Positions 1-11,434 of a DNA stretch of 11,548 bases are shown here, one piece after another. The translations under genes and the position numbers were made by a program. Numbering within the stretch: the first letter of the stretch is position 1; every line of letters begins with the position of its first letter. The notes below the pieces were generated by a model. It was not told where the DNA came from. It did not search any database and worked only from the letters and a program-made list of their open reading frames with translations. This DNA is from Treponema sp. (GTDB taxonomy: Bacteria > Spirochaetota > Spirochaetia > Treponematales > Breznakiellaceae). The DNA lies in the NCBI GenBank assembly GCA_031280065.1, contig JAITHH010000058.1, positions 1 through 11,548 on the forward strand, given 5' to 3'.

Positions 1-336
1 CAGGAGGCTTCATCCGCGTTTTCAGGCGATGTGCTGAAAGAGGCGCTTCCCGGCCTGGTCAAAGGATGGGCTTCCGGGGCTGAAACCCTGGACGTGATCC
101 TCCCCGAAGGCGAACTGCGCGCGCTGGATGCCTATTTTCAGGATAAGCTGGCGGCGGAATTCAAGCGGGGTCTGGAACTCAAACCCGACCGCAACTTGGC
201 CGCCGGATTCCGTATCGCCAACAAAGACGGGTCCGCCTATTACGACTTTTCCGCGGACGCGGTGGTGGAACTCCTTTCGGCGTACCTCAACCCCCGGCTG
301 GCGGAAATCTTGAAAGATTCGGCAAAAGGAATATAA
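1..336 (+). CDS. atpE: V-type ATP synthase subunit E, C-terminal part (5' end outside window)
   Basis: This is the C-terminal 111 residues of the peripheral-stalk subunit E, which tethers the V1 head to membrane subunit I. The frame is open from base 1 (reading QEASSAF...) with no start codon that would fit a full-length protein; family members are usually about 190-210 residues, so roughly half is missing upstream. Visible features are the alternating acidic/hydrophobic stretch (VILPEGEL) and a terminal segment ending in LNPRLAEILKDS, which fits the subunit E C-terminal domain. The TAA stop at 334-336 lies four bases before the next start. The assignment depends partly on position: in treponemes and chlamydiae subunit E is the first gene of this operon. 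An ATG at 31 is internal and is not taken as the start. Confidence 0.85.
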   Translation, partial: QEASSAFSGDVLKEALPGLVKGWASGAETLDVILPEGELRALDAYFQDKLAAEFKRGLELKPDRNLAAGFRIANKDGSAYYDFSADAVVELLSAYLNPRLAEILKDSAKGI

Positions 337-340
337 CAAA

Positions 341-928
341 GTGGGCTCCTACTATTATCTGGCGGCCCAGCTTCCCTATCTCGTATACGGACAGACCCCG
401 CCCATGACTTCCGCCGCTTTCCGGGAACTGGCCGGTTCGCTGTTGGATAAGGAAGACGCGGCGTTGCTGGATGCGGTAGGACTGGACTCCGGCGCCGGCG
501 GGGAGGGCCCGGCTTATGCGGAGGACGCTCCGGCCTCGGGCAGCGGCTTTATTGACCGCTGGCGGGAATGGGAGCGGGCGCTGCGGCTGAACCTGGCCCG
601 GTACCGCGCCGGAAGGCTCAAACGGGACGGGGGCGCGTCTGCGGAGCCGCCCGCTCATCCGGCGGACGCGGCTGCGGCGGTCAAGGCGGCGGCGGCGCTG
701 GATTCCCCCCTGGAAGCTGAGTTCCTGTTGGATAAAGCCCGCTGGGACGCGGCAGATCACTTTCAGGGAATTGACTGGTTTGACAGGAATAGCATTTACG
801 CCTATCTGCTCAAGCTGCTCCTGTTGGAACGGCGGGCGGCATTTCAGGTTGAAGAAGGATTTGCGGAATATAAAGCACTCTACGCTTCCATTCTGGATCG
901 CGTACAGTCCGTGGGAGAAGCGAAATGA
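341..928 (+). CDS. DUF2764 family protein of the V-ATPase operon
   Basis: This is a 195-residue soluble protein starting at GTG 341, with an AAAAGGA ribosome-binding sequence at 324-330. It begins GSYYYLAAQLPYL, which matches my memory of DUF2764 proteins found between subunits E and A in spirochaete, chlamydial and Bacteroidetes V-ATPase operons. The middle (about residues 45-120) is rich in Ala, Gly and Pro and probably a variable linker. The C-terminal third (WDAADHFQGIDWF, then a Leu-rich helix with LLKLLLLERR) looks helical and conserved. There is no signal peptide, membrane segment or nucleotide-binding motif. Its TGA stop overlaps the atpA start (ATGA, 925-928), suggesting translational coupling and a structural role in the complex. 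Because no C or F subunit is visible, I infer that it could substitute for a central-stalk or adaptor subunit; this is not shown by the sequence. Confidence 0.8.
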   Translation: MGSYYYLAAQLPYLVYGQTPPMTSAAFRELAGSLLDKEDAALLDAVGLDSGAGGEGPAYAEDAPASGSGFIDRWREWERALRLNLARYRAGRLKRDGGASAEPPAHPADAAAAVKAAAALDSPLEAEFLLDKARWDAADHFQGIDWFDRNSIYAYLLKLLLLERRAAFQVEEGFAEYKALYASILDRVQSVGEAK

Positions 929-2685
929 CCGGAACAAAAGGCACGGTGGTAGCCGTTAACGGCAATATGGTAAGCGTCCGTTTTGACGGCGCCGTTTCCA
1001 TGAACGAAGTCGGTTATGTCAAGGTTGCCGATAAGCGGCTTAAGAGCGAGGTGATCCGGATCCGGGGGAATATTTCCCAGCTCCAGGTGTTTGAGATTAC
1101 CAAGGGAATCGCCGTCGGGGACCAGGTGGAGTACACCGGCGATATGCTGTCGGTGGAAGTGGGGCCCGGTCTGCTGGGCCAGGTCTATGACGGCCTGCAA
1201 AACCCCCTTCCCCAGTTGGTGGCGGCGGCGGGCAGCTTCCTTGAACGGGGCGTGTACCTGGACCCGCTGTCTACAGACAAGGCGTGGGAATTCACCCCGG
1301 CGGTCAAGGCGGGAGACGCGGTGGAACGGGCCGATACCCTGGGCACGGTGATGGAGGGGGCCTTTACCCACCGTATCATGGTGCCCTTTGGCTTGTACGG
1401 GGCGTATACTGTAGCTTCTATTAAAGGCGCGGGTTCGTATAAGCTGCGGGACGCTATCGCCGAACTGAAAGACGAAAAAGGCAATGTGATTCCCGTCTCG
1501 CTTTCGTTCCGTTGGCCGGTCAAGCGCCCGGTGGACTGCTTTCAGGAGCGGCTGAAACCCCGGGATCCCATGGTTACGCGGGTCCGCCTGATCGACACTT
1601 TCTTTCCGGTGGCGCGGGGCGGGACGTATTGTATTCCGGGGCCTTTCGGCGCCGGGAAGACCGTGCTCCAGCAGATCACCAGCCGTCACGCGGACGTGGA
1701 TATTGTAATCGTGGCGGCCTGCGGCGAGCGGGCCGGCGAAGTGGTGGAAACCCTCAAGGAATTCCCCGAATTGACCGACCCCAAGACCGGGCGTTCCCTC
1801 ATGGAGCGGACGATCATCATTTGTAATACCTCTTCTATGCCCGTGGCGGCACGGGAAGCGTCGGTGTACACCGCTGTAACCCTCGCCGAATACTACCGCC
1901 AGATGGGGCTGCACGTGCTTTTGCTGGCGGACTCCACGAGCCGCTGGGCCCAGGCCATGCGGGAAATGTCGGGCCGCCTGGAGGAGATTCCCGGCGAAGA
2001 AGCCTTCCCCGCGTACCTTGAATCCACCATCGCCAGCTTTTACGAGCGGGCGGGCATTGTGCGGCTCAAGGACGGTTCAATTGGGTCGGTCACCATTGGC
2101 GGCACGGTCAGTCCGGCGGGCGGCAACTTCGAGGAGCCCGTTACCCAGGCCACGCTCAAGGTAGTGGGCGCGTTCCACGGCCTTTCCCGCGAACGTTCAG
2201 ACGCCCGGAAGTTCCCCGCCATCCACCCGCTGGATTCCTGGTCCAAGTACCGGGGCATCATCGACAGCGCCAAGGTGAAGTACGCCCACGCCTTTATGCG
2301 GCGGGGCAACGAAGTCGAGCAGATGATGAAGGTCGTCGGCGAAGAGGGCACGAGCATCGAGGACTATGTGGTGTACCTCAAGGGGGACCTGGTGGACGCG
2401 GTTTACTTCCAGCAGGACTCGTTTGATCCGGTGGATTCATCGGTCAGTCCTGACCGGCAGAAGCATATCTTCGCCATTCTCCTCAATATTCTGGCTTCCC
2501 AGTTCTCGTTCCCCGATAAGAACGAGGCCCGGACCTGGTTCAACCGGCTGCGGCAGAAATTCCTGGACTACAACGGCTCCGATTGGCAGAGCGAGCGGTT
2601 TTTCAGCCTGCAAAAGGAAGTCGAGGCCACGGTGGCCCAGCAGTCGCTGGGGCTGGACAAGACGGCTGAGAAGGTCTTGGCGTAG
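925..2685 (+). CDS. atpA: V-type ATP synthase catalytic subunit A
   Basis: This is the catalytic subunit of the V1 head, which hydrolyses or makes ATP at the A/B interfaces. The 586-residue length is normal for the family. After an N-terminal beta-barrel comes the long insert typical of A subunits (about residues 110-190). The P-loop GPFGAGKT lies at residues 239-246 with Lys245 and Thr246 as nucleotide ligands. The catalytic Glu268 sits in the CGERAGE motif. The Walker B region LLLADSTSRWAQAMRE has Asp336. No key residue is missing. The ATG overlaps the stop of the DUF2764 gene by four bases, and a GGGAG sequence at 913-917 can serve as the ribosome binding site. A 66-base gap with no obvious promoter or hairpin separates it from atpB, so the two are probably co-transcribed. 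Confidence 0.97.
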   Translation: MTGTKGTVVAVNGNMVSVRFDGAVSMNEVGYVKVADKRLKSEVIRIRGNISQLQVFEITKGIAVGDQVEYTGDMLSVEVGPGLLGQVYDGLQNPLPQLVAAAGSFLERGVYLDPLSTDKAWEFTPAVKAGDAVERADTLGTVMEGAFTHRIMVPFGLYGAYTVASIKGAGSYKLRDAIAELKDEKGNVIPVSLSFRWPVKRPVDCFQERLKPRDPMVTRVRLIDTFFPVARGGTYCIPGPFGAGKTVLQQITSRHADVDIVIVAACGERAGEVVETLKEFPELTDPKTGRSLMERTIIICNTSSMPVAAREASVYTAVTLAEYYRQMGLHVLLLADSTSRWAQAMREMSGRLEEIPGEEAFPAYLESTIASFYERAGIVRLKDGSIGSVTIGGTVSPAGGNFEEPVTQATLKVVGAFHGLSRERSDARKFPAIHPLDSWSKYRGIIDSAKVKYAHAFMRRGNEVEQMMKVVGEEGTSIEDYVVYLKGDLVDAVYFQQDSFDPVDSSVSPDRQKHIFAILLNILASQFSFPDKNEARTWFNRLRQKFLDYNGSDWQSERFFSLQKEVEATVAQQSLGLDKTAEKVLA

Positions 2686-2751
2686 GGCGCGGCGGGTTGT
2701 TCATGTTCGATTTACGGTACGGCATTTTAACCGGACAAAACAGGGGTTAGT

Positions 2752-4053
2752 ATGAAAAAGGTATATAGCAAGATTGAATCCATTACCGGAAGCGTCATCA
2801 CCGTCCGGGCCGAGGGCATTCGCTACGGGGATCTCGCCGAAGTGGACACCGTGTTTGGAACCTCCCTGGCGGAGGTGAACCGGCTGCAGGACGACTTGGT
2901 TTCCCTCCAGGTGTTTGCGGGGGGGCGGGGTATTTCTACCGGCGATACGGTGCGCTTCCTGGGCCATCCCATGCGGGTGCCTTTCTCGGAAGATTTGTTG
3001 GGCCGGGTGTTTTCCGGTTCGGGGACTCCCCGCGACAAGGGGCCGGGGCTCTATGAGAACCTGATTCCCATCGGCGGCCCGTCGGTGAATCCCGCGCAGC
3101 GCATTGTCCCCCGGAACATGATCCGGACGGGAATTCCCATGATCGACCTTTTCAACACCCTGGTCGTTTCGCAGAAACTTCCGGTCTTCTCGGTTTCCGG
3201 GGAGCCGTACAACGATCTGCTGGCGCGGATCGCCATGCAGGCGGAAGTTGACGTGATCATCCTGGGGGGCATGGGGCTTAAATACGATGACTATCTCTTC
3301 TTCAAGGATACCTTGGAGGAGGGCGGGGCCCTTTCGCGGACGGTGATGTTCGTCCATACGGCTTCTGATCCCACGGTTGAGTGCTTGATGATCCCCGATA
3401 TGTCCCTGGCCGTGGCCGAGCAGTTCGCCTTGCAGGGGAAGGACGTGCTGGTTCTCTTGACCGACATGACCAACTTCGCGGACGCGATGAAAGAAATCTC
3501 CATTATCCAGGAGCAGGTTCCCTCGAACCGTGGCTATCCGGGCGATTTGTACAGCCAGCTTGCCAGCCGCTACGAGAAGGCCGTTGACTTTGAGGGCGCC
3601 GGTTCCATCACGGTACTGGGGGTAACGACCATGCCCGGCGATGACGTAACCCACCCGGTGCCGGACAACACGGGCTATATCACCGAGGGGCAGTATTACC
3701 TCAAGAACGGGCGCATCGAGCCCTTCGGTTCGCTGTCGCGGCTGAAACAGCAGGTAAACGGGAAGACCCGCGCCGATCACCGGGCGCTCATGGACGGGAT
3801 GATCAAGCTGTACTCGGCGTACCGGGACACGCTGGAAAAGAAGGCGATGGGCTTTATCATGACGGCCTGGGACGAGAAGCTCCTCAAATACGGCGAGCTG
3901 TTCGAGAGCAAGATGATGGATCTGTCGGTGAATATTCCCCTGGAAAAGGCCCTGGACTTGGGCTGGGAAATTTTGGCCGATTGTTTTGAGCCGGAAGAAA
4001 CAGGACTGCGGACCGAGCTGATTTCCAAGTTCTGGCCGGGCGAAAAAGCCTAG
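2752..4053 (+). CDS. atpB: V-type ATP synthase regulatory subunit B
   Basis: This is the non-catalytic nucleotide-binding subunit that alternates with A in the V1 hexamer. It has 433 residues, slightly short of the usual 440-460 but complete. Where the catalytic subunit has a P-loop, this protein reads SVSGEPYND (residues 147-155), lacking the GKT Lys/Thr; this degeneracy is diagnostic of subunit B. SLSRL carries Arg330, the arginine finger that reaches into the A active site. [16 protein letters not shown] and [17 protein letters not shown] are classic B-subunit blocks. The start is ATG 2752 with an AGGGG ribosome binding site nearby (about 2742). It lies between atpA and atpD in the standard spirochaete order. 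Confidence 0.97.
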
Positions 4054-4071
4054 CGCTTTTGATGAGGGACT

Positions 4072-4674
4072 ATGGCAAAGATAAAGCTGACCAAAAACGA
4101 GCTTAAGAAACAGAAAGATTCTCTTAAGATGTATCAGCGGTATTTGCCAACCCTGATGCTCAAAAAGCAGCAGCTTCAGGGGGAGATCCGGATCACGGAA
4201 CTGCGGATCAAGGAACTGCGCAGCGAGAAGGATCATTTGGACGAGTCTTTTAAGTCCTGGGTGGCGGTATTCGGCGAGCGGGGCGTTTTTACCCCCGGTA
4301 TTCTCCAGATTACCCGGATCAAGACCGCCCAGGGGAATATCGCGGGGGTGGCTATCCCCCTTTTTGAGGGCGCTGAATTTGAGACCGCGCTCTATGATTT
4401 GGCCCGGACGCCGCTCTGGCTGGATATTGCCGTGGAGAAGATGAAGCAGGTGATCCTTTTGGACCTGGAAGCGCAGATCGTAGAGGAGCAGCGCAGGCGG
4501 CTTGACCGGGAATTGCGGGTTACAACCCAGCGGGTCAACCTGTTCGAGAAGATCAAAATCCCCGAAACGCGGGGAAACATCAAAAAAATTCAGGTGTATT
4601 TAGGCGATCAGCAGACTTCCGCGGTGGTGCGGGGAAAGATCGCCAAGAGCGGATTGGAGAGGGCAGCGACATGA
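4072..4674 (+). CDS. atpD: V-type ATP synthase subunit D (central rotor shaft)
   Basis: This is the central rotor axle that transmits torque between the A3B3 head and the membrane ring. The 200-residue length is typical. The N-terminus (MAKIKLTKNELKKQKDSLKMY) matches the family's opening LTKxxLxxQxxxLKxY pattern. Long charged helices at about residues 10-65 and 120-195 would form the antiparallel coiled coil. NLFEKIKIPE in the C-terminal helix resembles the conserved NALE/NxFEx(V/I)xIP block of subunit D. A GAGGGA ribosome binding site (4064-4069) precedes ATG 4072. The TGA stop overlaps the atpI ATG. The Chlamydia and Treponema genes in the same position carry the same name. Confidence 0.95.
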   Translation: MAKIKLTKNELKKQKDSLKMYQRYLPTLMLKKQQLQGEIRITELRIKELRSEKDHLDESFKSWVAVFGERGVFTPGILQITRIKTAQGNIAGVAIPLFEGAEFETALYDLARTPLWLDIAVEKMKQVILLDLEAQIVEEQRRRLDRELRVTTQRVNLFEKIKIPETRGNIKKIQVYLGDQQTSAVVRGKIAKSGLERAAT

Positions 4675-6599
4675 TAGTACCCATGAAGAAGGTGTGCCTG
4701 ATCGTTCAGGATAAGGTCCAGGAAGAAGCCCTTACTAAGCTGCGCGAGATTGGCGTAGTGCATCTGGAAAAGAAGGACGCTGCTTCCGCCGGTCTTTCCA
4801 AGGCGCTTGAACGCAAGGCCAGGGTGGAAAACGCCCTTAATCTCCTGCGGCCCTTCAAAGCGCCGAAGCAGTCCGCCGGTTCCGAAGGCGGGGAGCGGCG
4901 GACTGGTCCTTCAGGGCGGCGCGCCACTGACCAGGCGGACGCGGGGGCGCAGGGGCCCTATTCGCTGGACGCGATTGACGCCCCGGCGCGGCCTGATCTG
5001 GCGGCGTTAATCGGGGATGTGGGCCGGGAAATCAAGGCGCTGCGGGACCGGCAGGTGTTCCTGGTACAGGAATGCACCCGCGTCCAGGCGTGGGGTGAAT
5101 TCGATCCCCGGTCGGTTCAGGCATTGGCGGAGAAGGGGTTGCCGCTTTTCTTCTATGAACTAACGCCCGCCGATTTTGCGGTCTTGCCGGAGGATGTGCG
5201 GTATATCCGTATGGGCGAGGACAAGAGCCGGGTGTACATTGTGGTTTTTGGCGCGGAAATTCCCGGCGTTTCTCCGTTTGTCCTGCCTGAAAAGTCCCTC
5301 GCGGGAATGAGGCGGGAGCAGGAGGAGATCAGGGCGCGGATAACGGAGCTTGAGGGGCGGCTGGAACGGTTTGTTGACCGGCGGCCCCATTTGGTCAAGG
5401 AGATGGCGGCGGTTCAGCAGGATATTGACTTTGAGGCTGCGCGGGGGGCGCTGGAACGCATTGACGATATTCCCCCGCAATTCGCCTGTTCGTATCTCAT
5501 GGGTTATGCGCCGCAGGAAGATATTGGGGTTCTCAAGCGGGCTGCGGCGGAACATGGCTGGGCGTTTTGGGCCGATGATCCGGGGCCCGATGATCCGGTT
5601 CCCACCAAGTTGAAGAACAACCGGCTGGTGAGCCTCCTGTACCCGCTTACGGATTTCCTGGAAGTGGTGCCCGGCTACAACGAGGTGGACATTACCGGCT
5701 GGTTCCTGCTGTTCTTCTGCGTGTTCTTTGGGATGATCTTCGGGGACGCGGGCTATGGGCTTCTGCTGTTTTTCATTGCCCTTATCGGGATACTCAAGAC
5801 CGCGAAGAAGGGCGTTCCCGCAGGGCTCAAGATGCTCATGCTGCTCAGTATTTCCAACACGGTCTGGGGCGTTTTGACCTGCACCTGGTTCGGGGTCGAG
5901 GCGGCCACGCTCCCCCAGATTTTCAAGGATATTTCCCTGCCCTTCATATCCGGCGCGAACCCGGATGAGGCTTATGTCAGCCAGAACTTGCAGGTCTTCT
6001 GCTTCTCCCTGGCGCTCCTGCAGTTGAGCATTGCCCATCTCAAGGGAATCATGCGGAACATTAAGTCCCTCAAGGTTTTAGGCGAGGTGGGGTCTCTGGC
6101 GATGCTCTGGGGAATATACCCGCTGGTCCTGTACTTGGTGGTGAGCAGCGTCCGTTTTCCCTTCCTTGAAGGGGATTCCCTCAACGTTGTGCTGGGGCTG
6201 GTAGGGGGCGGCTTTGCCTTGGGCTTCATATTCGCCAACTACGAGGGCAGTATCGGGCGGTCGATTGTGACCAGCTTGAAAAACATCATTTCCGTTGTGC
6301 TGGGAGTTACCAACGTGTTCTCCGACATCATGTCCTATATCAGGCTGTGGGCGGTTGGGCTCGCGGGGGCTTCCATATCCGCAACGGTGAATACCATGGC
6401 GGGCCCCCTGCTGGGGAATTTCCTGGTGTTCCTGGGGATCATTCTGTTGGTATTCGGACATGGGCTCAATATCGTGTTGAACGTACTGTCCGTACTCGTT
6501 CATGGTGTCCGTCTCAATACGCTGGAATTTTCAGGGCATATTGGGCTGACATGGTCAGGTACCGCATATAGACCGTTCGCTGAAACGGCTAGAAAATAA
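4671..6599 (+). CDS. atpI: V-type ATP synthase subunit I (membrane stator, a-type)
   Basis: This is the membrane stator subunit that provides the ion half-channels against the K ring and anchors the peripheral stalk. It has 642 residues. The cytoplasmic domain (about 1-340) starts MIVPMKKVCLIV, the usual family opening, which supports ATG 4671 over the internal ATG at 4683. The membrane domain starts near Trp344 and contains FFGMIFGDAGYG (352-363), a family hallmark, followed by about six further hydrophobic helices. Arg558 in SYIRLWAVGLAGA corresponds to the essential arginine of a-type subunits (Vph1 Arg735 region). Residues 63-96 form an Ala/Gly/Arg-rich low-complexity insert within the cytoplasmic coiled coil that looks unstructured. 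The start overlaps the atpD stop (ATGA), which suggests coupled translation. Confidence 0.96.
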   Translation: MIVPMKKVCLIVQDKVQEEALTKLREIGVVHLEKKDAASAGLSKALERKARVENALNLLRPFKAPKQSAGSEGGERRTGPSGRRATDQADAGAQGPYSLDAIDAPARPDLAALIGDVGREIKALRDRQVFLVQECTRVQAWGEFDPRSVQALAEKGLPLFFYELTPADFAVLPEDVRYIRMGEDKSRVYIVVFGAEIPGVSPFVLPEKSLAGMRREQEEIRARITELEGRLERFVDRRPHLVKEMAAVQQDIDFEAARGALERIDDIPPQFACSYLMGYAPQEDIGVLKRAAAEHGWAFWADDPGPDDPVPTKLKNNRLVSLLYPLTDFLEVVPGYNEVDITGWFLLFFCVFFGMIFGDAGYGLLLFFIALIGILKTAKKGVPAGLKMLMLLSISNTVWGVLTCTWFGVEAATLPQIFKDISLPFISGANPDEAYVSQNLQVFCFSLALLQLSIAHLKGIMRNIKSLKVLGEVGSLAMLWGIYPLVLYLVVSSVRFPFLEGDSLNVVLGLVGGGFALGFIFANYEGSIGRSIVTSLKNIISVVLGVTNVFSDIMSYIRLWAVGLAGASISATVNTMAGPLLGNFLVFLGIILLVFGHGLNIVLNVLSVLVHGVRLNTLEFSGHIGLTWSGTAYRPFAETARK

Positions 6600-6642
6600 T
6601 GGTTTGCTCAGGCGAATCGTAAACGTAATAGAGGAGTAGAGC

Positions 6643-7083
6643 ATGGACAATTTAGGGTTGTTAGGGGCCGGTTTAGTGATGGGTATTGCCGCGCTGGGTT
6701 CCGCATTGGGGATCGGTATCGCCGGTCAAGCTACAATCGGGGCATGGAAGAAGTGCTATGCCGCCAACAAATCGGCTCCGATGACGCTGCTTACCTTTGC
6801 GGGAGCGCCGTTAACTCAGACCTTCTACGGGTTTATCCTGATGCAGCAGATTAAAACCGCTGCGGCGCTGAATCCGGGCAGCGGCTGGCTGTATATCGGC
6901 TTCGGCATCGGTTCCGGCCTGGCAATGGCTTTCTCGGCTATCGCTCAGGGTAAAGCGGGGGCTTCCGCCGCTGACGCGCAGGGAGAAACCGGCAAGGGTT
7001 TTGCCCAGTATATCGCGGTGGTTGGTATCTGCGAGACCGTCGCGCTGTTTGCGATGGTTCTTTCCATGACCAGTCTCGCCTAA
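6643..7083 (+). CDS. atpK: V-type ATP synthase subunit K (proteolipid ring), Na+-type ligands
   Basis: This 146-residue proteolipid has four hydrophobic helices (about 4-28, 48-75, 82-103 and 121-145), the duplicated 16-kDa form that builds the rotating membrane ring. The ion-carrying carboxylate is Glu131 in ICETVALF. The other side-chain ligands known from the E. hirae Na+ ring (Thr64, Gln65, Gln110, Glu139, with Tyr68 as hydrogen-bond partner) align with Thr58, Gln59, Gln102, Glu131 and Tyr62 here, in PLTQTFYGF and AIAQGK. Only one carboxylate is present in the two hairpins, as in NtpK. The start has a strong GAGGAG site at 6631-6636. A 43-base gap follows atpI, and no promoter is evident in it. 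This is the last gene of the operon. Confidence 0.95.
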   Translation: MDNLGLLGAGLVMGIAALGSALGIGIAGQATIGAWKKCYAANKSAPMTLLTFAGAPLTQTFYGFILMQQIKTAAALNPGSGWLYIGFGIGSGLAMAFSAIAQGKAGASAADAQGETGKGFAQYIAVVGICETVALFAMVLSMTSLA

Positions 7084-7220: not shown

Positions 7221-8297
7221 ATGTCTTCAGTGGTAAAGATCGGCAGTTCCCTCAGTATCGGGGGCAATTCTCCCGTGGTTATTCAGACCATGTGGAAGGA
7301 TCCCCTCTCGTATAGTGATCTTGAGGGAAGCGTGAAACGTATACACGATCTCGCTGCAATGGGCTGCGGGCTCCTCCGGTTTGCCGCGCCGGATATGTCC
7401 TCTGTAGAGGTTCTGGGTGCGCTCGCTTCGCTGGTTTCCATGCCCCTGTCAGCGGATATTCACTTTGATTACCGCATCGCCCTGCGCTGCCTTGACTTCC
7501 CCATCGCTAAAATCAGGATAAATCCCGGAAACATCGGGGGCCGCAAGCAGGTGGAGGCGGTGCTTTCCAAGGCCGCCGCCAAAGGGGTTCCCATCAGGAT
7601 CGGGGTAAACGGGGGCAGTCTGCCCCGTGATCTCAGGGCGCGGGTTCAAGACGGGAGTCTGGGGCGGGCCGAAGCCCTGGCCGAGGCCGCCGAACGGGAA
7701 TTGGCGGTTTTCAAAGAATTCGATTTTCAGCAGGTTCTCGTCTCTATGAAAGCCTCCTCGGTTGCCGATACTATAAAGGCGAACCGGATGCTGGCGCAGC
7801 GGAGCGATGTTCCGCTCCATATCGGCGTTACCGAGGCGGGGCCGCTGATTGCGGGCGTAACGCGGAATACGGCGGCGCTCTATACCCTGCTGACCGAGGG
7901 GATTGGCGACACGATCCGCGTTTCCCTTTCGGACACGATGGAGAACGAGGTGATCGCGGGCCGTGAGATTCTGCGTACGGTGAGCGGAGGAGGGGAGGCC
8001 GGGCGATGCGCGAGCGGAGGGGTAACGATCATCTCCTGCCCCCGCTGCGGCAGAAACGGCTTTGACACGCACGGCTTTACCGAACGGTGGCGGGATTATC
8101 TCTACAAACTGGATAAGAACCTTACCATTGCGGTGATGGGCTGCGCGGTAAACGGCCCGGAAGAGGCCCGGCACGCCGATCTGGGGATCACCGGCGCGGG
8201 AAACAAGGCGCTGCTCTTCCGCCGGGGAACGGTGATTCGTACTATAGACGCGGCGGACGCGGACGGGGTATTTCGGGAAGAGCTGGAGAAACTATGA
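7221..8297 (+). CDS. ispG: 4-hydroxy-3-methylbut-2-enyl diphosphate synthase (flavodoxin/ferredoxin), MEP pathway
   Basis: This is the 4Fe-4S reductase that turns methylerythritol cyclodiphosphate into HMBPP in isoprenoid synthesis. It has 358 residues, the compact bacterial form with TIM-barrel and C-terminal cluster domains. The opening block (VKIGSSLSIGGNSPVVIQTM) and KIRINPGNIG are typical. The cluster ligands are Cys273 and Cys276 (SCPRCGR), Cys308 and Glu315 in MGCAVNGPEEA, matching E. coli Cys270, Cys273, Cys305 and Glu312. The usual Gly before the Glu ligand is Glu here. No good ribosome binding site precedes ATG 7221, and the upstream frame has no start codon back to a TGA at 7182, so this start is favoured by alignment and lack of alternatives. 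It overlaps the next gene by four bases. Confidence 0.95.
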   Translation: MSSVVKIGSSLSIGGNSPVVIQTMWKDPLSYSDLEGSVKRIHDLAAMGCGLLRFAAPDMSSVEVLGALASLVSMPLSADIHFDYRIALRCLDFPIAKIRINPGNIGGRKQVEAVLSKAAAKGVPIRIGVNGGSLPRDLRARVQDGSLGRAEALAEAAERELAVFKEFDFQQVLVSMKASSVADTIKANRMLAQRSDVPLHIGVTEAGPLIAGVTRNTAALYTLLTEGIGDTIRVSLSDTMENEVIAGREILRTVSGGGEAGRCASGGVTIISCPRCGRNGFDTHGFTERWRDYLYKLDKNLTIAVMGCAVNGPEEARHADLGITGAGNKALLFRRGTVIRTIDAADADGVFREELEKL

Positions 8298-9415
8298 GGC
8301 AAAGACAGGCATGGACGTTAAGCGCGGCGCTGCTCCTTTTTTCCGCTCCCCTGTGGGCGCAGCGGGAGGTTCAGCGGCCTTTTTGGTATATTTTGGAGCA
8401 GGGGAAGCTGGCGTTTAGAGCCGGGGCCTATGGCGAAGCCCTGGCATCGTTTGAACGGGCCCGGGACCTGCGGCGGGATATGTTTACCCGCATGGAAGAG
8501 GACTTTATCGCCCTTTTGTCCATGGCGGAAGTCCGGCGTCTGGGGGACAGTCTGGAACAGGTCGAGTCCTACATTTCCAGCCGGAGTTATCTGAATGTGT
8601 CCGGTATCCTGGAAGAGGTTTATTACCGGGTACCCAAGGCGAGTCTGAATGGTTCCGCGTCCAAGGCCTTAACGGAAATGGGCCGTTTGAAAAATTATCC
8701 CGAGGCGGAATATTGGATAGGCGAGGCGTACCGCGCCGATGGGGAGCTGGGCATTGCCCTGCGGCAATACGAAAAGGCGTATGAGCTGCGCTCCCTGTTG
8801 GAGAATCCTGCCTTTGCCCCGGAGCTGCTCTACAAGATGGCCGATATTCACCGTATCCGCGCTGAGTACAATCAGATGGAGAAGCGGCTGCTGGAGATTC
8901 TTGAGGGTGATTCCCTGTGGCCGGAGGACCCGGAGAGTTTTCTGCGCAGCGCGATGAACCGGGTTCTTGAGAACGATGGGATTAACCGTTTCCTGACGGT
9001 GTACCGTTACAGCAACGCGGCGGTTTTGCGGGCTCATTCCCTGTTGGGTTTCTACTACTATACGCGGGGGCGCCATAGCCGGGCGGTTGAACATCTGCTT
9101 TTTGCCTTTTTGATTCAAAACACGCTTTTAATCGAAGAACTCAGCCGGATTCAATATGGCTTTACCTTTACCTCGATAGACGCGCTTCTTGCCGAAGTCT
9201 TGCGCCGGCCTGCGCTGGCCGCTTACCTGGAAGAGCTGGAGTATTACCGGATTGCCTATTACTTGGGTTCCTCGTACTACGGGGATGGAAAGGCGAAGAT
9301 CGCCCGGATGATATGGGATATGCTCAACCGGCAGCGCGCTGCGGGAGAATGGCAGGCTCGCGCTGCGGGGCAGCTTAAAAGTCCGTTCGTGGAACGGGGG
9401 GCCAGCGGAGAGTAG
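8294..9415 (+). CDS. Exported TPR-repeat protein downstream of ispG
   Basis: This 373-residue protein begins with a probable Sec signal peptide: basic start (MRQRQ), hydrophobic core (SAALLLFSAPLW) and likely cleavage near Ala22. The mature part is helical, with at least three TPR-like units at about 30-62 (GKLAFRAGAYGEALASFERA), 136-169 (GEAYRADGELGIALRQYEKA) and 244-277 (LLGFYYYTRGRHSRAVEHLL). No catalytic motif or lipobox is visible, so a periplasmic scaffold or assembly role is plausible but the partner is unknown. Its ATG overlaps the ispG stop (ATGA), so the two are translated together. From memory, a hypothetical gene also follows ispG in Treponema pallidum; I could not compare them. 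No function is assigned. Confidence 0.85.
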   Translation: MRQRQAWTLSAALLLFSAPLWAQREVQRPFWYILEQGKLAFRAGAYGEALASFERARDLRRDMFTRMEEDFIALLSMAEVRRLGDSLEQVESYISSRSYLNVSGILEEVYYRVPKASLNGSASKALTEMGRLKNYPEAEYWIGEAYRADGELGIALRQYEKAYELRSLLENPAFAPELLYKMADIHRIRAEYNQMEKRLLEILEGDSLWPEDPESFLRSAMNRVLENDGINRFLTVYRYSNAAVLRAHSLLGFYYYTRGRHSRAVEHLLFAFLIQNTLLIEELSRIQYGFTFTSIDALLAEVLRRPALAAYLEELEYYRIAYYLGSSYYGDGKAKIARMIWDMLNRQRAAGEWQARAAGQLKSPFVERGASGE

Positions 9416-9668: not shown

Positions 9669-10167
9669 ACAACTGTTTTTTTACCACAGATGAACACGGA
9701 TGTACACAGATTGCGAACCTTCGGTTCTACGCTGATGTGGTTTTTCTTCATCTGCGCCATCTGTTTCATCCGCGTAATCTGCGGTTCCTGGACAACTGTT
9801 TTTAAACCACAGATGTACGCAGATTGCGAACCTTCGGTTCTACGCTGATGTGGTTTCCGTTCATCTGCGGTATCCTGTTCATCCGCGTAATCTGCGGTTC
9901 CTGGACAACTGTTTTTAAACCACAGATGAACACGGATGTACGCAGATTGCGAACCTTCGGTTCTACGCTGATGGGGTTTCCGTTCATCTGCGGTATCCTG
10001 TTCATCCGCGTAATCAGCGGTTCCCTGGTAACTGTTCTTTTTAACCACAGATGAACACGGATGTACGCAGATTGCGAACCTTCGGTTCTACGCTGATGGG
10101 GTTTTTCTTCATCTGCGCCATCTGTTTCATCTGCGTAATCTGCGGTTCCCTAAAGGCTGTCCTTTTT
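9669..10167. repeat. Four tandem ~113-125-bp repeats with internal inverted words
   Basis: Four adjacent copies start with CCACAGATG at 9684, 9807, 9920 and 10045, giving periods of 123, 113 and 125 bases; copy 2 lacks ten bases near its start. A partial end of the unit (ACAACTGTTTTT, 9669-9680) precedes copy 1. Each copy carries CAGATGAACACGGATG and CGCAGATT on the left, a GAACC-TTC-GGTTC mini-hairpin in the middle, and reverse-complement words (TTCATCTGCG, TTCATCCGCG, AATCTGCGG) on the right, so each is an imperfect inverted repeat. Copies 1 and 4 share one version of the right half and copies 2 and 3 another. Both strands stay open for short stretches, but the implied peptides repeat with the DNA and have no start context, so I treat the array as non-coding. 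Similar CAGATGAACACGGAT words are scattered in many bacterial genomes as far as I recall. Confidence 0.92.
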
Positions 10168-10201: not shown

Positions 10202-10230
10202 TTGACATAGTTTTCAATTGCCGGTATAAA
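10202..10230 (+). promoter_or_regulatory. Consensus-like sigma-70 promoter
   Basis: TTGACA (10202-10207) and TATAAA (10225-10230) are spaced by exactly 17 bases, a perfect -35 and a 5-of-6 -10 box in otherwise GC-rich DNA. It begins about 35 bases after the tandem repeat array ends. Transcription would start near 10237, which is also an ATG. Downstream lie the C tract, the 21-bp array and the gene at 10727, so this promoter could drive that gene through a leader of about 490 bases, a leaderless reading frame, or a non-coding RNA. Confidence 0.7.
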
Positions 10231-10363
10231 AAGAATATGCAGCGCAGACAAGGGTACGGTAAGTACCATGTAAACCAAGGGGCGGCGTTTTTCGCTGGCC
10301 GGGAGCCGTTAATGCCCAGGATGGGCCCGGCGCAAATTGCAGGGGTCATTCAGCAGAGGTTTA

Positions 10364-10377
10364 CCCCCCCCCCCCCC
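10364..10377. repeat. Poly-C tract (14 bases)
   Basis: Fourteen consecutive Cs, followed by ATTTTTTAG and then a second run of seven Cs (10387-10393). Tracts of this length are prone to slipped-strand length change, and treponemes are known to use poly-G/C tracts for phase variation. It lies 134 bases downstream of the -10 box and about 350 bases upstream of the gene at 10727. A length error in sequencing or assembly is also possible. Confidence 0.9.
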
Positions 10378-10451
10378 ATTTTTTAGCCCCCCCGGTAAAT
10401 TACTGGTTATATTCTCTCTTTACCCGGACGGGTTCTGGTAATTATGGGCCA

Positions 10452-10703
10452 TATTCTAAAGAATTCGGGCTGTATTCTAAAGAATCTGGCTCATATTCTA
10501 AAGAATCTGGGCTGTATTCTAAAGAATATGACTCGTATTCTAAAGAATTTGGGGCATATTCTAAAGAATCTGACTCGTATTCTAAAGAATATGGGCTGTA
10601 TTCTAAAGAATATGGGTCATATTCTAAAGAATTTGGGTCATATTCTAAAGAATCTGGGGCGTATTCTAAAGAATATGGGACGGATTCTACAGCAAACAGC
10701 GCC
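10452..10703. repeat. 21-bp tandem repeat array (11 units plus a degenerate 12th)
   Basis: Eleven head-to-tail 21-bp units (10452-10682) each begin with the identical 13-mer TATTCTAAAGAAT. An 8-base variable part follows, usually (A/C/T)TG(G/A) plus four bases. A decayed twelfth unit (GATTCTACAGCAA) follows. The core contains a dyad, ATTC-TAAA-GAAT, extended to six-base arms where the flanks allow. The 21-bp period equals two helical turns, placing all cores on one DNA face. The array ends 23 bases before the start codon at 10727. Options are a multi-site operator or iteron-like protein-binding array, a structured leader, or coding repeats (see 10237-10715). It is not a CRISPR: units are contiguous and spacers are only 8 bases. 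Confidence 0.95.
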
Positions 10704-10726
10704 ATAAGCACATAAGGAGGCTTGAA

Positions 10727-11434
10727 ATGGCGCAAAAATCAGACTGGATGCCCTCACGCAGGGACGATATTCTCCACATGGCAAAGACCTGGAACACAGT
10801 GCTGGCGGTTAAGGGGCCGCTCTGGGGCGTGCCCGCCGCGGAAATCGCCGAACTGCTCGCCCTGACCGCCGAAGCAGAGGCCGTTCTGCAGGAAGCCAAG
10901 TCCGGGGAGCGGAATTCGGTCATTACCGTCCGCTGCAGAACCGTCTTTGACCTGCTGCGGGGCAAGATGCGGTACATCAAGGACCGGTATTTCAAAAAAC
11001 CCCCGCTGGAGGACCCTGATTTCCCCGCCCTGCTCCTGCACCTCAAGGACGATAACCCCACCTCATCCGGGCGGCCCGCGGGCCAACTGCTCCTCAGCGT
11101 GAGCTACGAGGGGCCGCACCTGCTGGTCGTCCACTGCTCGCCCCTGATTACCGGGGTAATTCACTCGAGCGAATGGGGCTATGCGGTCTACGACGGCATC
11201 ATGCCTTCAGGCGGCGCGAGCCTGGAAGAAGCGGCGGGCGCCCGGCACTGCCTGATGCATCCGTCCCTGTCCGGGGACGAGCTGCTGTACTGGCGCTTTA
11301 CCCGGCGCAAGAAGGAAGTCCGCGAGTATGCCGCGGAGGAAAGTTCAAAGACGGCGTATTTCTGCGCCCGCTGCGAGAACCAGCGCGGCGAGCACGGGGC
11401 CTGGGGCCCGGTGGCAAGCGCGGTGATCCCCTAA
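10727..11434 (+). CDS. Hypothetical protein, treponeme-type family starting with a DWMPxxR motif
   Basis: This 235-residue protein has no assigned function. ATG 10727 follows a strong AAGGAGG site at 10714-10720 with a 6-base gap, so the start is secure. It opens MAQKSDWMPSRRDDILHMAK, then a helical N-terminal region to about residue 70 (LLALTAEAEAVLQEAKSGERN). KMRYIKDRYFKKPPLEDPDFPALLL is a likely conserved centre. The C-terminal 100 residues look beta-rich and end KTAYFCARCENQRGEHGAWGPVASAVIP, reminiscent of a fibronectin-III-like edge. There is no signal peptide or membrane segment. I recall similar multi-copy hypothetical proteins in termite-gut treponemes but could not check. Upstream are the 21-bp array and promoter; immediately downstream an IS5-type element abuts its TAA. 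The stop is probably native because the ending SAVIP seems typical of the family as I recall it. Confidence 0.85.
   Translation: MAQKSDWMPSRRDDILHMAKTWNTVLAVKGPLWGVPAAEIAELLALTAEAEAVLQEAKSGERNSVITVRCRTVFDLLRGKMRYIKDRYFKKPPLEDPDFPALLLHLKDDNPTSSGRPAGQLLLSVSYEGPHLLVVHCSPLITGVIHSSEWGYAVYDGIMPSGGASLEEAAGARHCLMHPSLSGDELLYWRFTRRKKEVREYAAEESSKTAYFCARCENQRGEHGAWGPVASAVIP

Follow-up and report, generated by a model that had tools for sequence, protein, structure and literature searches.

A candidate phase-variable translated leader with a self-complementary repeat array in Treponema

Layout of the locus

The window analyzed here is the whole of an 11,548-nucleotide stretch of DNA from Treponema sp. (GenBank assembly GCA_031280065.1, contig JAITHH010000058.1). 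Toward its end, a promoter and a start codon are followed by a run of 14 cytosines, by an array of 21-bp palindromic repeats, and by a gene for a 235-amino-acid protein of an unnamed, multi-copy family. We describe these elements as a candidate phase-variable leader, in which changes in the length of the C tract would move the array into or out of a translated frame, and we evaluate this reading largely through the relatives of the locus. The features are as follows.

10202–10230, plus strand: sigma-70-like promoter TTGACA-17-TATAAA (TTGACA at 10202–10207, TATAAA at 10225–10230; 11 of 12 matches)
10237–10239, plus strand: leader ATG, 6 nt past the −10 hexamer, a predicted leaderless start
10237–10386, plus strand: leader frame as assembled (OFF), running into the C tract, with its stop at 10384–10386
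10364–10377, plus strand: C14 tract, the predicted site of slippage
10380–10715, plus strand: YSKE frame, the predicted ON frame, which spans linker and array after the tract and ends at TAA 10713–10715
10439–10441, plus strand: stop of the third frame behind the tract, from frame reading
10440–10689, plus strand: array of about 12 units of 21 bp, with a conserved TATTCT-AA-AGAATA palindrome and a 7-bp variable spacer
10714–10720, plus strand: Shine-Dalgarno sequence AAGGAGG, overlapped by the ON-frame stop TAA at 10713–10715
10727–11434, plus strand: gene for the 235-amino-acid protein, ATG at 10727

The C14 tract starts 127 bp downstream of ATG 10237, and the linker between tract and array is 62 bp long. 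A first-pass annotation of this DNA had placed the promoter and the ATG exactly to the base, and reading of the frames bears out its description of what follows: the ATG frame runs into the 14-C tract and meets a stop at 10384, the YSKE frame remains open in every unit and ends at 10713–10715 on the Shine-Dalgarno sequence of the next gene, and the third phase stops at 10439. Frame arithmetic likewise agrees that adding one C, or removing two, joins the ATG to the YSKE frame. The assembled ATG frame is the one that stops at 10384, and the contig is therefore in the OFF phase.

The annotation had also proposed that the tract gives one ON and two OFF states. This logic holds in the window and at most of the tract-bearing paralogous loci, with the qualification that the array itself is open in two plus-strand frames, YSKE and ILKN. 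The ILKN frame is shut behind the C14 tract by the stop at 10384. The YSKE frame has the palindrome register that is most common among relatives (see below), and the ILKN frame does not. For both reasons, the closure behind the tract and the rarer register, we set ILKN aside as the ON frame.

Slippery tracts and arrays at related loci

A search with the 235-amino-acid protein returned 179 homologs at expectation values (E) up to 0.001. Among the matches listed (120 of the 179), 14 carry an organism label, namely 12 metagenome-assembled genomes (MAGs) of Treponema, one Planctomycetaceae MAG, and one Pillotina. Genome contigs were searched with an alignment of 34 of the homologs, which recovered 124 relatives. 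We retained 80 of these: 76 come from MAGs of Treponema or Spirochaetaceae and four from bins named Planctomycetaceae. Scanning genome contigs with the single protein gave no matches. The locus set used below comprises 75 unique family genes, the window included, that have their N terminus and at least 200 bp of upstream sequence in view. Duplicates were dropped only where the first 301 bases were identical.

A 21-bp-type array lies in front of 71 of the 75 family genes and ends less than 260 bp before the gene. The four genes that lack one are L006, L019, L042, and L075, one of which has a 29-bp pair. An earlier survey found arrays in 68 of 81 loci (window included), and eight of the 13 loci without an array had less than 80 bp upstream. 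The sequence of the repeat unit varies from locus to locus, and the period is 21 or a multiple; this constancy is partly built in, because the count admitted only arrays with a period of 21, close to 21, or a multiple. Across whole loci, 21 is the smallest period in 107 of 199 merged tandem arrays, duplicates included. Further 21-bp-type arrays, at L006:4874–5237 and L099:481–727, lie more than 500 bp upstream of a family gene or before a second array.

We counted as a slippery tract, upstream of the array, any stretch of 10 or more C or G and any 7-bp unit present in four or more successive copies. Such a tract is present at 27 of the 71 loci with arrays, and 10 others are truncated too soon upstream. 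Poly-C and several different 7-bp repeats occupy the same position at family loci, and some of the 7-bp tracts read as heptapeptides. The 400 bp upstream of arrays hold 25 tracts in 22,618 bp, against eight in 653,640 bp elsewhere in L001–L080 and the window, a 90-fold enrichment. In terms of simple sequence repeats, the window has a slippery tract whose unit is not divisible by three inside a reading frame, C14 within the frame of ATG 10237. Six contigs (L014, L017, L025, L034, L046, and L051) begin at or one base before a 7-bp tract, as if the assembly broke there, and their true tracts may exceed the assembled length.

An open frame from tract through array

At 21 of the 27 tract loci (window included), some frame runs without a stop from the tract across linker and array; shuffling the linkers while preserving dinucleotides predicts 3.5. 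The number of passing frames per tract locus is one in 19, two in 2, and zero in 6. The first-pass annotation had made its case dependent on paralogous arrays lying in open frames, and these arrays do so behind slippery tracts, often with a promoter and ATG in front. In the window alone, 76.5% of linker shuffles leave some frame passing from tract through array; with so short a linker, its open frame is no better than chance, and the relatives therefore carry the case. At each of 17 loci with one ON frame, the ON-frame stop falls between −35 and +20 of the gene start (12.4 expected), a range that was chosen post hoc.

The frame bias is also visible in the arrays themselves. The frame one base behind the gene (phase 2) is open in 46 of 68 arrays, compared with 22 and 16 for the other two frames, and it is the sole open frame in 27 of the 36 arrays that are uniquely open. 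The minus strand of the arrays has a similar bias (39, 16, and 15). We also weighed, and set aside, the idea that array and gene are fused in frame; six of the 68 arrays run into the gene in the gene's own frame.

Promoters and start codons ahead of the tracts

Seven of 17 tract loci, the window included, have an ATG located 5–9 nt past a promoter with at least 10 of 12 matches. On the basis of 11 such arrangements among 9,516 background ATGs, 0.08 would be expected. A promoter scan that demands T as the last base of the second hexamer omits the window promoter TTGACA-17-TATAAA. Other tract loci, such as L045, carry a Shine-Dalgarno sequence. The assembled phase of the seven promoter-ATG loci is ON in L012 and L063 and not ON in five, one of which, L033, lacks an ON frame entirely. 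If phase were random, roughly one third would be ON.

Further promoters with at least 10 of 12 matches occur in the gap between array and gene at only three of 71 loci, and T6 runs, whether close to the end of the array or in the gap, occur at only seven of 71. Given these low counts, expression of the 235-amino-acid gene most likely relies on the promoter upstream, and whatever blocks its expression is probably not an intrinsic terminator in general.

Self-complementarity and folding of the arrays

Palindromic units are a recurrent property of the arrays even though their sequences differ. We examined 66 arrays for palindromes and computed statistics on the 65 whose self-identity is 0.6 or more. 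Arms of 5 or longer occur in 29 of the 65, compared with 12.5% of shuffled units, and the arms are less variable than the rest of the unit in 45 of the 65. The center of the palindrome falls between codon bases 1 and 2 in 13 of the 20 long-armed arrays that are uniquely open. It does so as well in eight of the 14 arrays whose ON frame is set by a tract.

The RNA of the window array is predicted to form one long foldback, with a minimum energy of −101 kcal/mol compared with −59 kcal/mol for shuffles (z −8.7). A second control permutes the columns of the units and thereby retains the repetition; it was applied to 67 of the 71 arrays with a maximum of 12 units each. Against these controls, 63 of the 67 arrays fold better than the mean and 31 fall in the best 5%, and the window array folds better than all 40 of its column permutations. 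On the minus strand at 10453–10670, ten successive units are each promoter-like (TTTAGA-17-TAGAAT), with 10 found against 1.4 in shuffles.

Constraint on the encoded peptide

Among 64 arrays with at least four units, no purifying selection on the heptads was found on average, and the synonymous share of single-base changes between units is 0.30, 0.27, and 0.27 in the three frames. The open-frame share is close to zero in L022, L057, and L065. Purifying selection was not found on the linkers either, in a comparison of 12 loci picked by eye as alike (23 pairs): single-base changes are distributed by codon position as 321, 283, and 309, and 106 are synonymous and 289 are not.

The lack of a synonymous excess in units or linkers is as expected if only open translation matters. 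On average, open translation appears to be preserved without clear amino-acid constraint, such that the frame is kept while the peptide is not visibly kept. The first-pass description of the repeats as part of one heptad-repeat gene finds no support in these data, since units and linkers carry no average synonymous excess while self-complementarity is kept. The array fits a translated leader better than a heptad-repeat gene, and the 235-amino-acid gene is likely the payload.

A proposed mechanism and its weaknesses

Because the frame and the tendency to fold back are kept and the peptide is not, we infer that translation through the foldback is the switch and that the 235-amino-acid gene is its target. 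We lean toward the view that the window carries a phase-variable translated leader, in which slippage of C14 determines whether the array is in frame and thereby probably switches the downstream gene. Tract length would change in cells by slippage and thereby shift the reading frame. In the ON state, one of three phases, ribosomes starting at the ATG would cross the array, prevent the foldback, and re-initiate at the next gene. In the two OFF phases, ribosomes would stop before the array, the array would fold back, and the gene would be poorly expressed. The OFF-state block might act via loss of coupling, via polarity, or via cleavage of the foldback.

Several observations weigh against this interpretation. 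Thirty-four arrays have room upstream and yet no tract, six tract loci have no passing frame, and in three tract-less loci with a strong promoter (L018, L023, and L064) the ATG frame stops before the array. Ten of 68 arrays lack a fully open plus-strand frame (L003, L007, L021, L033, L034, L038, L043, L046, L062, and L068), and L062 and L068 are among the most palindromic. Single-array palindromy reaches p<0.05 in only 16 of 65 arrays, and the foldback of the window array is one of many near-equal registers, with a frequency of 0.0009 and a centroid that is almost unpaired. Clustering of ON-frame stops near the gene start is only modestly above chance, and the open-frame synonymous share is high in L009 (0.47), L035 (0.52), and L064 (0.56). 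Moreover, tract lengths are assembly calls, and the loci are related, many being paralogs in the same genomes, so that they are not independent in a way that the null models ignore.

Comparison with known systems

Poly-G phase variation operates in Treponema pallidum, where the tracts adjoin promoters. The window resembles this system in having a homopolymer tract in a treponeme. Unlike those promoter tracts, however, the tract here begins 134 bp past the last base of the −10 hexamer, inside the leader frame.

The closest proven mechanism is the pil1 leader of Streptococcus gallolyticus, in which GCAGA repeats lie in a leader peptide and the frame decides whether ribosomes open a terminator, a mechanism supported by mutants (PMC3894217). 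Both systems place a slippery repeat in a leader open reading frame (ORF) ahead of the main gene, where the frame governs, or here would govern, access of ribosomes to an RNA hairpin; translation of the leader in the window is predicted. The pil1 locus has one intrinsic terminator and pentanucleotide repeats, whereas the loci examined here have poly-C or 7-bp tracts and many paralogs. Also unlike pil1, the ORFs here contain about three to 20 or more palindromic units, and T runs are few. A terminator of the pil1 type is not general across the loci, given T6 at seven of 71, although the window itself has two terminator-like stems on the plus strand.

Three other repeat systems share individual features with these loci. 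The NeuO gene of Escherichia coli K1 carries AAGACTC repeats in its coding frame and is ON at repeat numbers divisible by three (PMC13001214). This seven-base coding repeat recalls the 7-bp tracts of some relatives, but the NeuO tract lies in the enzyme's own gene rather than in a leader that precedes another gene. PARCEL elements are dyad-symmetric coding repeats, arranged in tandem and able to form extended palindromic structures; their units of 75 nt match DUF285-type models (PMC2996958). Palindromic tandem coding repeats are common to both, whereas the unit here is 21 nt and lacks an average synonymous excess, the difference being judged with no DUF285 scan of the peptide. The TAACTGA repeats of Beggiatoaceae are seven-base direct repeats upstream of genes, as some of the tracts here are, yet they are mostly intergenic, lie just upstream of start codons, and contain stop triplets in their unit (PMC4679880); they are not a leader ORF. 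Literature title searches, whose coverage leaves out most subscription journals, found no paper on a tract-array layout at many paralogous loci, and Treponema is absent from the main text of a report on prokaryotic satellites (PMC6749651).

Alternative explanations

The heptad array might itself be the product, with slippage switching a repeat protein that has variable positions and the 235-amino-acid gene merely next in the operon. We judge this unlikely. A period of 21 or a multiple (seven codons in the basic unit) would suit a repeat protein, as would the open frame from tract through array, the codon register shared by 13 of 20 uniquely open long-arm arrays, the confinement of changes to a few codons per unit, and the many synonymous changes in the open frames of L009, L035, and L064. 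What this explanation does not account for is that no frame shows an average synonymous excess across the 64 arrays, that the three codon positions of linkers change about equally, and that units differ between loci while the foldback tendency is kept. A role at the level of DNA seems less probable still. Here a DNA-binding protein would recognize the units as dyad sites spaced by two helical turns, or the array would be a slippage by-product of palindromic repeats, and the open frame would be of minor importance. Neither the frame that runs open through non-repeat linkers from the tract (21 of 27 against 3.5) nor the promoter and ATG in front is predicted by such a role, although it would accommodate palindromic units whose sequence is different at each locus, a 21-bp spacing equal to two helical turns, the similar bias of minus-strand frames, and strongly palindromic arrays such as L062 and L068 that have no open frame.

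Transcription attenuation of the pil1 kind, in which an intrinsic terminator is opened by longer leader translation, shares its logic with our proposal, since in both the repeat tract lies inside a leader ORF (PMC3894217). The terminator-like stems in the window, one behind the tract at 10392–10406 and one inside the array at 10574–10595, would fit this model, but the scarcity of T6 runs near array ends or in the gaps (seven of 71 arrays) makes it improbable as an explanation for these loci. Lastly, the tract and frames could be assembly noise or neutral, with no switching. Homopolymer lengths are error-prone, and the window is a single metagenome contig. The 90-fold enrichment of tracts and the frame statistics make this the most remote of the explanations, and we give it very little credence.

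The protein family and the rest of the window

The structure model of the 235-amino-acid protein has a mean predicted local distance difference test score (pLDDT) of 90.4 and a predicted template modeling score (pTM) of 0.62, and consists of three N-terminal helices and a C-terminal sandwich. In structure comparison, the sandwich matches fibronectin-III domains (best E 2e-4, with a template modeling (TM) score by query of about 0.35), and the match to 1k85 has a TM score by target of 0.78. The C-terminal half is accordingly predicted to be fibronectin-III-like. Pfam gave no family at E 0.001 for the protein itself; over 90 members, at E up to 1, the best E was 0.006 in one member and no family matched more than five. 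A sequence search of the PDB yielded no convincing match. In viral contigs, one scan recovered no relative of the protein, and another, with a two-unit pattern of the window array, gave no exact match.

The family has 4 to 73 matches per genome, fragments included, in the 15 genomes searched. At least 126 of 195 genomes in the taxonomic family of one searched genome have a match, as counted from a limited number of candidates scored per genome. Four family genes (L002, L003, L008, and L009) are in the Planctomycetaceae-named bins, three of them with a 21-bp-type array in view, which could reflect misbinning or transfer. In genome G009, short repeated pieces of the C-terminal part of the family (C59:15366–16154, C94:6106–6522, and C139:10578–11803) are clustered or lie near longer copies, and could be silent cassettes or decayed copies. 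Pillotina is termite-gut material, as we believe the MAG sets of the relatives to be, and the window may share that origin.

The sequence immediately before the promoter, at 9694–10149, consists of almost four tandem copies of an element of approximately 113–125 bp (CACAGATGAACACGGATGTACGCAGATT...), a repeat distinct from the 21-bp array. Farther upstream, the gene order and sequence at 31–7083 resemble a V-type ATPase operon. It is followed by gcpE/ispG at 7221–8297, identified by a Pfam match, and then by a weakly matching TPR protein at 8294–9415.

Implications

A broader and more tentative proposal, to which we give somewhat less weight than to the leader itself, concerns gut treponemes in general. 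Their genomes may contain a genome-wide switchboard of up to dozens of fibronectin-III-type paralogs, each behind a translated self-complementary array and many behind a slippery tract, in which translation rather than the peptide would set the ON or OFF state and each cell would express a random combination. If this is true, leader-based phase variation would no longer be confined to pilus loci in a single Streptococcus and would include a large, multi-locus repertoire in spirochaetes. The new part would be a foldback array that is maintained as a reading frame and not conserved as a peptide. The tract-to-array layout would also constitute a searchable signature, and an abundant, nameless protein family would gain a testable mode of control.
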